From Tepidicaulis marinus (GTDB lineage Bacteria > Pseudomonadota > Alphaproteobacteria > Parvibaculales > Parvibaculaceae), in assembly GCF_000739695.1 (NCBI RefSeq), contig NZ_BBIO01000006.1, forward strand, positions 124,001 to 188,000: a DNA stretch of 64,000 bases, given 5' to 3'. The position numbers and the translations under genes were made by a program. The notes under the pieces were generated by a model, which ran no database searches, was not told the DNA's origin, and saw only the letters and a list, made by a program, of their open reading frames with translations. The first letter of the stretch is position 1. Every line of letters begins with the position of its first letter. This document shows, piece by piece, positions 1 to 5,043 of this stretch.

Positions 1-196
1 CGCGTCCTTCTTCCGCGCTCCAGCCCAGCACTTTAGTGCCAAAGGCGCTCTTGCGGCTCAAAAGAGAAGGGAGCAGGCGGCAGACCCGCCCGGTGAAGGG
101 CGAGCCCAGCGCCTCGCAAGCCGCGGCCTGCTTGGCAAAATGTTCCGGCACGGAAAGGCGCTCTTTGTTTTTGTTGGTTTCCAAAGCCGTACTCAT
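1..196 (-). CDS. DUF2332-like protein, N-terminal part
   Basis: An open frame of 65 codons runs from an ATG at 196 off the left edge of the window. It begins MSTALETNKNKERLSV and continues with an AKQAAACEALGSP stretch, which resembles the start of DUF2332 proteins (typically FRRQA-x-ACxxLGSPLY). The ATG overlaps the TGA of the upstream citrate synthase gene as ATGA, so the two are probably translationally coupled. The biochemical role of DUF2332 proteins is not known to me. The family call rests only on the N-terminus and is inference; that it is a coding region is supported by the coupling and by the absence of stops. Confidence 0.55.
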   Translation of the reverse strand, partial: MSTALETNKNKERLSVPEHFAKQAAACEALGSPFTGRVCRLLPSLLSRKSAFGTKVLGWSAEEGR

Positions 197-1302
197 GCGG
201 CCTCCTCTGGTTCCCGGCCGGTGTAAAGCGAGGCGGGGCGGATGAGGCGGCCGATGCGCTGCTGCTCCATCGCATGGGCCGTCCAGCCGACGATCCGGCC
301 CATGGCAAAGAGGGGCGTGAAGGCGCTGCGCGGCATGGCAAGCCCGTCGAGCAGCATGGCCGTGTAGAACTCCACATTCGTTTCAAGCGGCCTGTCAGGC
401 TTGCGCGCTTTGAGGGCGGCAAGGGCGGCTTTTTCGACGGCCCGGGCGAGCGCCAGTTTCTCGCCCGATGGTTTGAGTTTTTCAAGCGCGGCTTTCAGCA
501 CATCGGCGCGCGGGTCGCGCACTTTATAGATGCGGTGGCCGAAGCCCATCAGCCGTCCGCCCTTGCCAAGGGCCTCCGCGATCCAGCTTTCCGCCCGCTC
601 CGGCGTGCCGATCGCATCGAGCATATTGAGAACGGGTTCGGGCGCCCCGCCGTGAAGCGGCCCGGTGAGCGCGGCATAAGCGCCGAGCGCGGCCCAGTCG
701 ATGCCGGCCTGTGTGGAGGCGATGACGCGGGCGGTGAAGGTCGAAGCATTCATGCCGTGATCCATCACCGTGACGAGATAGGTGGTGAGCGCTTCTTCTC
801 TCGCAGGCGCGGGTGTCTCCCCTGTCAGCATACGGAGGAAATCGGCGACATGGCCGCTACCCGCATCGGGGGCAAGCGGGGCTTTGCCTTCCTGCAGACG
901 CAAAGCGGCGGCAAGAATGACGGGCACCGCGCCGGTGACGGCAAGATGCGGCGCGCTCTTTTCGCTGCCTTTCATCGCGGCAAGGCCGAGGCGCAGCGCT
1001 TCAGAGGTGCTCAAGCCTTCAAAGGCGGGAAGGAACGGGGCAAGGCGCGTGAAAGCCTCCTCCCGCGCGCGTCCAAGCGCGGCGCGGACGGCTTCGGCGC
1101 TTTCCGCCGGGCGGGCCTGAGCCTCCCCCCAGAAAGTTGCTGCCGCGCTTTCGAATGTGTGGGCGGCGGTGAAATCCTTCAGATGCGCGCCGCAGAGAAT
1201 GAGCCGGCCCGCCTGGCCGTCGACGCGGCTCAGCGCCGTTTCGGCGGCGGGAATACCTTCAAGCCCGGTAAGGGGGGAGGCAGATGAGAGGTGCGTGTTC
1301 AT
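193..1302 (-). CDS. Citrate synthase paralogue (Glu at catalytic Asp position)
   Basis: Citrate synthase-fold protein of 369 residues, likely condensing acetyl-CoA (or propionyl-CoA) with oxaloacetate. The catalytic His motifs are visible: GPLHGG near residue 217 and GFGH near residue 255. The third catalytic residue, normally Asp in an NVDFY-type motif, is Glu here (NVEFY, about residue 310). The C-terminal GWTAHAMEQ and IRPASLYTG motifs that contact substrate are present. I chose the ATG at 1302 because GGAGGG lies 7 nt upstream; an in-frame start at 1398 lacks this. It is transcribed divergently from a second citrate synthase and followed by the overlapping DUF2332 gene. It could be a 2-methylcitrate synthase or a specialised paralogue; substrate cannot be read from sequence. 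Confidence 0.88.
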   Translation of the reverse strand: MNTHLSSASPLTGLEGIPAAETALSRVDGQAGRLILCGAHLKDFTAAHTFESAAATFWGEAQARPAESAEAVRAALGRAREEAFTRLAPFLPAFEGLSTSEALRLGLAAMKGSEKSAPHLAVTGAVPVILAAALRLQEGKAPLAPDAGSGHVADFLRMLTGETPAPAREEALTTYLVTVMDHGMNASTFTARVIASTQAGIDWAALGAYAALTGPLHGGAPEPVLNMLDAIGTPERAESWIAEALGKGGRLMGFGHRIYKVRDPRADVLKAALEKLKPSGEKLALARAVEKAALAALKARKPDRPLETNVEFYTAMLLDGLAMPRSAFTPLFAMGRIVGWTAHAMEQQRIGRLIRPASLYTGREPEEAA

Positions 1303-1388
1303 GAAACCCTCCATAAGTGGCGATGTGGCGAGGTGTTGGGGCGCCGGAAAGACCGGCCGCTTGCCATCGAATCTGGGAGGGTTTATGG

Positions 1389-1423
1389 GTATGATCAATC
1401 TTGATTAAGCTAATCAATATAAA
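1389..1423. promoter_or_regulatory. Divergent promoters with a shared perfect palindrome
   Basis: A perfect inverted repeat, TTGATTA-AGC-TAATCAA, occupies 1401-1417. On the plus strand it is followed directly by TATAAA (1418-1423), a good -10, so the palindrome fills the -35/-10 spacer of the HTH-citrate synthase promoter; the -35 (1395-1400) is weak. On the minus strand TTGATT inside the palindrome (1417-1412) is a -35 with TCATAC (1394-1389) as -10 at 17-bp spacing. One dimeric regulator bound here would touch both promoters. Palindrome in the spacer is the arrangement used by MerR-family regulators. Start sites are predicted by eye. Confidence 0.6.
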
Positions 1424-1433
1424 GATTTCTGCG

Positions 1434-2660
1434 ATGAGCGCTGACAGCTCGGAAGACTCGGTCCTTTATCTCTCTGCCCGCGAGGCGGCGGCGGAGCTCG
1501 GCGTCTCACCCGCCACGCTTTACGCTTATGTGAGCCGGGGGATGATCCGCTCCGAGCCCGTGCCCGGCGCCCGGGCGAAGCGCTACCGCGCCGAGGATGT
1601 GCGCGCCCTTGCCGAGCGGCGCGCCCCGCCCGGCAAGGCGGAAAAGCGCCCGCGCCATGTCACAGCTTTCTCCGCGGCCCAGCCGGTGCTCGCCTCCGAC
1701 ATTTCGCTCATCGCGGAAGGCGGGCTTTATTACCGGGGCGTCGATGCGGGCGAGCTTGCCCGCCATGCGAGCCTTGAAAGCGCGGCGGGCCTTCTCTGGC
1801 AGACAGCGGATTACGATGCTTTTGCCAAAGACAATCTGCCGCCGCAGGTGCCGGTGCTGAAGCTGCTGGCCGATGAAGCAAAAGACGCTCATCCCATCGA
1901 CCGCTGCATGGCGGTGCTGGCGCTGGCCGGCGCGGCGGATGAAGGGGCCTATAACCGCACCGACCAGGGTCTTGCCCTTGCCGCCGCCCGTATCACGCGG
2001 CTTATGGCGGCGCTTGTCTCGGGCGGGCCGCTTTCAGCGCGGCCCATTCACGATCAGTTCGGCGATGCCTGGGGGCTCGATGAAAAAGGCCGCGCGCTCG
2101 TGCGCATGGCGCTGGTGCTGCTCGCCGATCATGAGCTCAATGCTTCCACCTTCACGCTGCGCTGCGCGGTTTCCACGGGCGCGAGCCTTTATGACGGCAC
2201 CATTGCCGCGCTTGCCGCGCTCAAAGGCCCGCTGCATGGCGGGGCCTCGGCGCGCGCCGCGCTGCAATTGCAAAAGCTGATGAAGAGCGGCGAGGTCTTG
2301 AGCGAGATTCGCGAGCAGGCGGCGGCGGGCGAGCGCTTTGCCGGTTTCGGCCACACCATCTACCGGGGCTGGGACCCGCGCGCCAAAGTGCTGCTCGAGG
2401 CGGTGGAAGAAAAACTCGGCGAAACCTTCTTCACCCGCGAGGTGCCCGCTTACGTGCAAAAGGCCGTGGGTGTTGCGCCCAATATCGATTACGGCCTTGC
2501 CATCCTCACCCATCTTTTGAAACTGCCCGCTCTTGCCGGCATCGGCCTTTTCGCGGTGGGCCGCTCCATCGGCTGGGCCGCCCATGCGCGCGAGCAGATG
2601 CGCGAGCGCACCCTCATCCGCCCCCGCGCCCTTTACACCGGCCCCGCGCCGAAGGGGTGA
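1434..2660 (+). CDS. Citrate synthase with N-terminal MerR-like HTH domain
   Basis: A 408-residue fusion. Residues of about 10-60 form a MerR/excisionase-like winged helix (LSAREAAAELGVSPATLYAY, then RYRAEDVRAL). From about residue 75 there is a citrate synthase domain with all three catalytic residues: His in GPLHGG (about 268), His in GFGH (about 307) and Asp in NID (about 352), plus RPRALYTG at the end. The ATG at 1434 is preferred over a TTG at 1401 because the TTG lies inside the palindrome and upstream of the predicted transcription start; no Shine-Dalgarno is visible, so the transcript may be nearly leaderless. The architecture is known from other genomes, but I know of no characterised function. 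It may sense a metabolite through its enzyme domain and control transcription; that is inference. Confidence 0.85.
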   Translation: MSADSSEDSVLYLSAREAAAELGVSPATLYAYVSRGMIRSEPVPGARAKRYRAEDVRALAERRAPPGKAEKRPRHVTAFSAAQPVLASDISLIAEGGLYYRGVDAGELARHASLESAAGLLWQTADYDAFAKDNLPPQVPVLKLLADEAKDAHPIDRCMAVLALAGAADEGAYNRTDQGLALAAARITRLMAALVSGGPLSARPIHDQFGDAWGLDEKGRALVRMALVLLADHELNASTFTLRCAVSTGASLYDGTIAALAALKGPLHGGASARAALQLQKLMKSGEVLSEIREQAAAGERFAGFGHTIYRGWDPRAKVLLEAVEEKLGETFFTREVPAYVQKAVGVAPNIDYGLAILTHLLKLPALAGIGLFAVGRSIGWAAHAREQMRERTLIRPRALYTGPAPKG

Positions 2661-4387: not shown

Positions 4388-5043
4388 GCTGTCACCCTTT
4401 GATCCTTGGCAAGACCCTGGCCGGTCATCTTGCCCTGATAGCCGACCGCCTGCAGGCAGAATTGTACGATAGCGTCGATAACGTGATCGCCGTTGCCGTC
4501 AAGCTCGTGGCTTTCAGGGGCGAGCGGGCCGATCAGTGCGGAGGGCACCGCGCCGGCAATGCAGGTTGCGGCAAGGCGCGCATCGGCCACTTCGAAGCTT
4601 CCCTCTTCCAGCCCGTCTTGTATCACACGGGTGAAAATATCGGCATGGGTGCGCCGGAAGCGCCAGCGCTCTTCGGCAATGGCATTGTCCACGGGCTCGG
4701 CGAGGAGCGCATAGGCAAGCCGGCGCCCGCGAATGGCGCGGGTGGCGAAAGTGCGCACCACTTGCTCAAGGCGCGTCGGGGCCGGGGCGGTTTTGGAGGC
4801 GATGGCGTTCAAAATGCTCATCTCGCGGGCAGAGACCTCGCGGAAGACCTGCAGGCAAAGCTCGTCCTTGGCGGAGAAATAGCGGTAGAGCGTGCCGGTG
4901 GCCAGGCCCGCCCGCTCGGCGACCGGCGCCATCTGGGCACTGGCAAAGCCGCCTTCCAGCACGAGTTCGCGGGCGGCATTGATGATCCGCCGCCGGTTTT
5001 CCGCAAGCCGCTGGGCGACCGCCTCGGTTCTGCGATAAGCCAA
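4384..5043 (-). CDS. TetR/AcrR family regulator of the desaturase operon
   Basis: Transcriptional repressor of 219 residues. The N-terminal HTH is typical of TetR: RRRIINAARELVLEGGF, then VAERAGLATGTLYRYFSAKDEL (in two parts). The C-terminal half is the ligand and dimerisation domain. The start is a TTG at 5043, chosen because GGAGG lies 7 nt upstream and the HTH begins at the normal distance; longer in-frame starts run into noncoding sequence. It is the first gene of the desaturase operon, and a 9-bp palindrome overlaps its promoter -10, so autorepression is expected. By analogy with TetR regulators of desaturases, the ligand may be an acyl-CoA or fatty acid, but nothing in the sequence shows this. 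Confidence 0.88.
   Translation of the reverse strand: MAYRRTEAVAQRLAENRRRIINAARELVLEGGFASAQMAPVAERAGLATGTLYRYFSAKDELCLQVFREVSAREMSILNAIASKTAPAPTRLEQVVRTFATRAIRGRRLAYALLAEPVDNAIAEERWRFRRTHADIFTRVIQDGLEEGSFEVADARLAATCIAGAVPSALIGPLAPESHELDGNGDHVIDAIVQFCLQAVGYQGKMTGQGLAKDQRVTA

Follow-up and report, generated by a model that had tools for sequence, protein, structure and literature searches.

Results

Two divergent citrate synthase genes share a spacer with a palindrome

The stretch of DNA analysed here (the window) covers 64 kb of the 3.48-Mb genome of the alphaproteobacterium Tepidicaulis marinus. It carries two divergent genes: HTH-CS, which encodes a citrate synthase (CS) with an N-terminal winged HTH, and CS2, which encodes a CitA-type citrate synthase. 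The gap between them is 131 bp long and contains a palindrome. We refer to the conserved element around this palindrome as the operator. The features of the locus are as follows.

193–1302, minus strand: CS2 gene (P0002, 369 aa), ATG at 1302; CitA-type citrate synthase without HTH
1367–1395, plus strand: weak, tentative HTH-CS promoter candidate from a matrix scan, TCGAAT (1367–1372), 17-bp spacer, TATGAT (1390–1395)
About 1394–1421, plus strand: full conserved operator ATCAATCTTGATTAAGCTAATCAATATA, from a frequency table of 116 distinct sites
1394–1398, 1401–1405 and 1413–1417: operator half-sites ATCAA, TTGAT and ATCAA, followed by a conserved TATA
1401–1417, no strand assigned: perfect 17-bp palindrome TTGATTA-AGC-TAATCAA, read directly; the operator core, conserved in orthologous loci
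1434–2660, plus strand: HTH-CS gene (P0001, 408 aa), ATG at 1434; citrate synthase with N-terminal winged HTH
1467–1622, plus strand: winged HTH domain, residues 12–63 (Pfam HTH_17, E = 2.6e-07; MerR_1)
1623–1682, plus strand: linker, residues 64–83, predicted to be disordered (pLDDT below 50 at 68–84)
1683–2627, plus strand: citrate synthase domain, residues 84–398 (Pfam Citrate_synt, E = 5.5e-61)

A preliminary description of this DNA had pointed to an N-terminal HTH on a citrate synthase, a divergent citrate synthase paralogue and a perfect 17-bp palindrome, and all three stand: HTH_17/MerR_1 and Citrate_synt fall on separate parts of one protein, CS2 is 41% identical to HTH-CS over 191 aa, and the palindrome reads exactly at its position on the plus strand. 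CS2 scores above the NCBIfam PRK12350 cut-off, and its nearest solved structure is 2c6x ('citrate synthase 1'), which we take to be B. subtilis CitA. In the catalytic motif of CS2, NVEF, Glu replaces the catalytic Asp, as it does in 2c6x; the same Glu is found in 99 of 100 scored CS2 orthologues. A third citrate synthase, of housekeeping-enzyme length, is encoded elsewhere in the genome (G000:C43). In a search of 60 relatives, the HTH-CS gene was present throughout the family, mostly with a CS2 match nearby on the opposite strand.

The HTH domain is MerR-like but lacks the MerR architecture

The AlphaFold model of HTH-CS (mean pLDDT 91.7) comprises a confident winged HTH at residues ~11–63, a disordered linker and a CS fold. 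The HTH_17 match lies above its Pfam cut-off, and the MerR_1 score, 21.6 bits, lies exactly on it. A fold search of the PDB with the HTH returned BldC (6ama, the closest), phage Xis, SoxR and NmlR, all with modest E-values, and a profile search against PDB sequences returned SoxR alone (E = 0.03). The protein thus has a winged HTH of the MerR family, by its MerR_1 and HTH_17 matches and its SoxR and NmlR fold matches. As modelled, this HTH resembles BldC and phage Xis no less than classical MerR proteins. The coiled-coil dimerisation helix and the C-terminal effector domain of MerR regulators are absent, their place being taken by the disordered linker and the CS fold. Neither is the protein a short stand-alone HTH without effector domain like BldC, as the HTH is fused to the CS domain. 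BldC is a MerR-like protein that recognises direct repeats, oligomerising asymmetrically head to tail on sites whose length varies (PMC5859096). The preliminary description had reasoned from MerR-family regulators, which bind palindromes in the promoter spacer. Because the HTH is no closer to these than to BldC and Xis, this logic is not established.

The HTH is highly conserved where DNA recognition is expected. The motif SxATLYAYVSRG (residues 25–36) is nearly invariant, and residues 30, 32, 34 and 35 are identical in all 176 of the 176 members with an HTH domain. Among 40 diverse members, mean pairwise identity is 0.79 in the recognition region (26–38), compared with 0.43 in the CS domain and 0.67 in its active-site stretch.

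The palindrome is the core of a three-half-site operator

Within the 64 kb of the window, the palindrome is the sole match to itself at up to three mismatches, against a chance expectation of 0.54. The conserved element extends beyond it, to about 1394–1421. Its consensus, (G/A)TCAATcTTGATTaannTaATCAATAT, contains three half-sites with the palindrome as the core; in full, the position-frequency table of 116 distinct sites gives (G/A)TCAAT(C/A)TTGATTAANNTAATCAATAT, with near-invariant TCAAT, TTGAT and ATCAA blocks. The window copy (1395–1417) matches the consensus with zero mismatches. The layout ATCAA-N2-TTGAT-N7-ATCAA forms two overlapping inverted pairs, and the same site reads equally well as two ATCAAT copies in direct orientation, 19 bp apart. 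The operator is therefore a three-half-site element, beyond the simple dyad of the preliminary description.

That description had also placed the palindrome in the −35/−10 spacer of one promoter and over the −35 of the other, for which the scans gave no confirmation. A sigma-70 consensus scan of 1200–1700 found no promoter, and the weak candidate for HTH-CS abuts the left edge of the operator instead of surrounding it. For the arrangement of MerR regulators, a dyad centred in a 19–20 bp spacer, the scan offers no consensus promoter here, and the best matrix-scan positions differ between orthologues. Consensus and matrix scans gave no common −35/−10 placement and hence no support for a fixed promoter geometry.

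The operator is conserved across several phyla

Of the 40 family genomes, 36 contain the short pattern TTGATTNNNNNAATCAA, mostly as a single copy, whereas its reversed control was found just once in the whole set of 40. In every genome in which both were located (33/33), a copy of the pattern lies just upstream of HTH-CS. When 15 fixed positions were scored within about 250 bp upstream, allowing up to three mismatches, the operator was found before 127 of 132 HTH-CS genes (101 exact). Of 2710 equal-sized windows drawn from these loci as controls, 8 had it; relatedness inflates such counts within genera. The operator is absent upstream of HTH-CS in L129, L164, L167, L179 and L181. Two Pseudovibrio loci, L111 and L116, keep the left operator half alone (GATCAATGTTGATCATG); in L111, a TRAP DctP gene lies upstream in the same orientation.

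A class-wide search together with 80 named loci found the same element in Bradyrhizobium, Mesorhizobium, Reyranella and Pseudovibrio (half site only), and also in Burkholderia, Pandoraea, Pseudomonas, Calidithermus, Gemmatimonadetes and Bryobacterales. In Deinococcota, Actinomycetota, Acidobacteriota and Chloroflexota, sampled by genomes drawn from the phyla of four distant loci, 35 of 40 loci carry the operator with its last spacer shortened (mostly 6, 5, 4 or 3 bp, versus 7), compared with 1 of about 1,018 control scans. Conservation thus spans these four phyla, the Alpha-, Beta- and Gammaproteobacteria, and Gemmatimonadota, the last represented by one locus (L105). The preliminary description had made its reading depend on the palindrome being conserved in orthologous loci; this was checked, and the palindrome is conserved across several phyla. 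In some actinobacteria (L162, L163, L165), the TTGAT-ATCAA spacer is 3 bp and not 7, and the related L164 and L167 are among the loci without operator; the binding mode may therefore differ in this group.

The operator tracks the HTH-CS gene and not its neighbour

CS2 is not the constant companion of the operator. Among the 28 loci with enough flank and no CS2 nearby, 25 keep the operator with at most one mismatch. The neighbours in such loci include CoA-transferase family III, DUF2332, methyltransferase, CitMHS citrate transporter, MFS and PEP-mutase/isocitrate-lyase family genes. The CoA-transferase III neighbours, eight of them Pfam-checked, come from Burkholderia, Pseudomonas, Rhizobium, Azospirillaceae-like and other genomes. 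Calidithermus has an HMGL-like neighbour together with a shorter operator spacer, and in L105 an isocitrate/isopropylmalate dehydrogenase gene lies between HTH-CS and CS2. A CitMHS citrate transporter gene also adjoins the second HTH-CS gene of Bradyrhizobium sp. NAS80.1 (L115). Since the operator persists whatever the neighbour, it tracks the HTH-CS gene.

The same association appears when the operator is taken as the query. In a class-wide scan that allowed up to one mismatch, 19 exact sites were among the matches listed; 17 are at HTH-CS genes and two lie inside unrelated coding sequence, an ftsA-like and a PQQ-repeat lipoprotein-like gene (named from their translations). No wider regulon was seen among these exact matches. 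Every non-coding match examined outside the known loci turned out to mark another HTH-CS gene: the 5' half of a gene split between contigs (G171:C19), a second copy in Bradyrhizobium (G338:C21), and a diverged Pandoraea paralogue, 30% identical to P0001, which the operator precedes (G335:C7; L188, 252700–255700). The motif therefore predicted family members outside its defining set; the Pandoraea paralogue was found solely through its operator. An apparent exception, L050, is an HTH-CS gene split over two contigs, with the operator at the other half (L135).

An exact match is also present at ATU_RS25365/ATU_RS25370 of Agrobacterium fabrum C58. ATU_RS25370 (L141:4887-6164) is annotated as starting at 4887, which puts its start upstream of the operator (4948–4970) and in overlap with that of the divergent gene; the true start is probably downstream of the operator. 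One element shared by several phyla beside differing neighbours is hard to explain, on these comparisons, without selection by a factor tied to the HTH-CS gene.

Several members have lost catalytic residues but keep the HTH and the operator

The window copy of HTH-CS has H233, H268, H307, D352, R316, R377 and R396. With the catalytic His/His/Asp (H268, H307, D352) in place, it belongs to the citrate synthase family (PF00285), and the earlier statement that it is catalytically complete holds at the residue level, for all seven residues. HTH-CS falls below every NCBIfam citrate synthase equivalog cut-off. Corresponding motifs in the pig and E. coli citrate synthases lead us to take R316, R377 and R396 as the residues that bind the oxaloacetate carboxylates. 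In 177 aligned sequences, these arginines are kept wherever they are covered.

The great majority of members have H268, H307 and D352 unaltered. In six of the 177 sequences, H307 is Asn or Gln; L147 has H233N, H268Y and D352S; and the second HTH-CS of Bradyrhizobium sp. NAS80.1 (L115:2525-3721), which has its own operator, combines H307Q with D352H. These catalytically broken members (L115, L031, L146–L150) retain the HTH, the operator and R316/R377/R396. Likewise, H233, H268 and apparently the Asp are gone from the Pandoraea paralogue, which keeps its HTH motif, its operator and two arginine motifs, RPRA and GR(S)AGW. Broken catalysis combined with a retained HTH, operator and arginines suggests ligand sensors derived from an enzyme, and the L115 protein is a candidate for a pure citrate sensor.

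A study of Caulobacter crescentus describes two adjacent extra citrate synthases, CitB and CitC (CCNA_03757/03758): CitB is a working enzyme similar to B. subtilis CitA, whereas an E. coli gltA mutant is not complemented by CitC (PMC7083601). In that study, the cell-cycle role falls to the housekeeping CitA and not to CitC (PMC7083601). CitB/CitC is probably the same pair as CS2/HTH-CS, with CitC as the putative HTH-CS orthologue; in both cases, two extra citrate synthase genes lie side by side in an alphaproteobacterial genome. The description of HTH-CS as a metabolic enzyme may accordingly hold in part: the window copy is complete in its residues, but some members are catalytically broken and CitC, the probable orthologue, failed to replace GltA. 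Most members keep a complete active site, so catalysis may be their chief function, with regulation as a local feedback.

Discussion

Our comparisons make it very probable that HTH-CS is a one-component transcription factor with citrate synthase as its sensor, which would bind the operator and control itself and, usually, the divergent gene. This supports the earlier suggestion of an autoregulator: the palindrome is conserved, it tracks the HTH-CS gene irrespective of the neighbour, and matches off the locus lead to HTH-CS genes. The broader reading, somewhat less secure but still likely, is that of an old, phylum-spanning family of one-component factors that would sense oxaloacetate, acyl-CoA or citrate through a whole citrate synthase; several lineages, their catalytic residues lost, would now be pure sensors controlling unrelated neighbours (CoA-transferases, a citrate transporter and others) by way of the near-invariant operator.

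The operator might instead be owned by a separate, unlinked regulator, for instance of the LysR or MarR type, leaving the HTH of HTH-CS with some other task. Palindromes of this size fit many regulator families, and B. subtilis offers a precedent: there the LysR-type regulator CitR, divergent from citA and with the operator between the two genes, controls this CitA-type citrate synthase, whose product is the nearest solved relative of CS2. The present locus resembles that arrangement, with a regulator-like gene divergent from a CitA-type citrate synthase and an operator in between, except that the partner is itself a citrate synthase, with an HTH of the MerR/BldC type and not a LysR protein. 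No other regulator gene stands constantly beside the operator, however, since the neighbour varies, and the operator occurs about once per genome and follows HTH-CS even to its second copy and its diverged paralogue. An unlinked factor with a single target over about six phyla would be unparsimonious, and we regard it as unlikely.

Less likely still, HTH-CS could be an ordinary synthase, auxiliary or of the 2-methylcitrate type, with an HTH that serves only oligomerisation or localisation, and the conserved DNA a core promoter. The active site is indeed intact in most members, and some species have likely promoter hexamers that overlap the element. But the element is much longer and far more specific than a core promoter would be, was not seen at other promoters, and its conserved letters give no fixed −35/−10 arrangement. 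In addition, the recognition region of the HTH is better conserved than the CS domain, and members with broken catalysis keep both HTH and operator. That the palindrome acts at the RNA level, forming a hairpin or a riboswitch-like element in the leader of HTH-CS, is rejected as scarcely credible: although many species have it between the likely start regions and the start codon, and its arms could pair, the arms are invariant and do not covary, the stem would be short and A/U-rich, the region has no Rfam match, and in several species the operator directly abuts the start codon.

We therefore return to HTH-CS as the regulator. Its winged HTH would bind the operator at about 1394–1421 and regulate HTH-CS and, here, CS2, which is a probable second target. 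A dimeric or higher-order HTH-CS could set several HTHs on the three half-sites, where it would occlude or activate the divergent promoters. The CS domain would bind oxaloacetate, acetyl- or propionyl-CoA, or citrate, and ligand-driven closure or dimer geometry, passed on through the flexible linker, may alter HTH spacing and operator occupancy. The expectation of a ligand among oxaloacetate, acyl-CoA and citrate fits the neighbours in C4–C6 acid and acyl-CoA metabolism. Our guess is that regulation is by repression, because the operator lies on or beside the HTH-CS start region. We infer the physical binding of HTH-CS to the operator, its ligand and any residual catalysis of the window copy from sequence comparison.

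Trigger enzymes such as PutA, NadR and BirA join a metabolite-binding enzyme fold to a DNA-binding domain and control their own or related genes; to our knowledge, none of these three uses citrate synthase. HTH-CS resembles them in combining, in one protein, such an enzyme fold with a predicted DNA-binding domain, and in having a conserved DNA site at its own promoter. It differs in being built on citrate synthase, and in that some members have lost catalysis but kept the ligand-binding residues. With classical MerR regulators, SoxR among them, HTH-CS shares the winged HTH but not the dimerisation coiled coil or the effector domain. It is like BldC in its closest HTH fold, in the absence of the MerR coiled coil and in a variable operator spacer, which suggests BldC-like site lengths. 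BldC, however, is a protein of 68 residues with no sensor domain; the operator of HTH-CS mixes inverted and direct half-sites. In the literature searched, largely outside subscription journals, we found no description of a regulator that fuses citrate synthase to an HTH.

Citrate synthase is the enzyme through which carbon enters the citric acid cycle. Regulation by HTH-CS is readily testable, given the operator, the ligand-binding residues and tractable hosts such as A. fabrum C58, and the system could provide a natural biosensor for central carbon metabolites. If our reading is correct, many genes annotated as 'citrate synthase family protein' would be regulators, and cells would read their oxaloacetate, acetyl-CoA or citrate status directly at a promoter.
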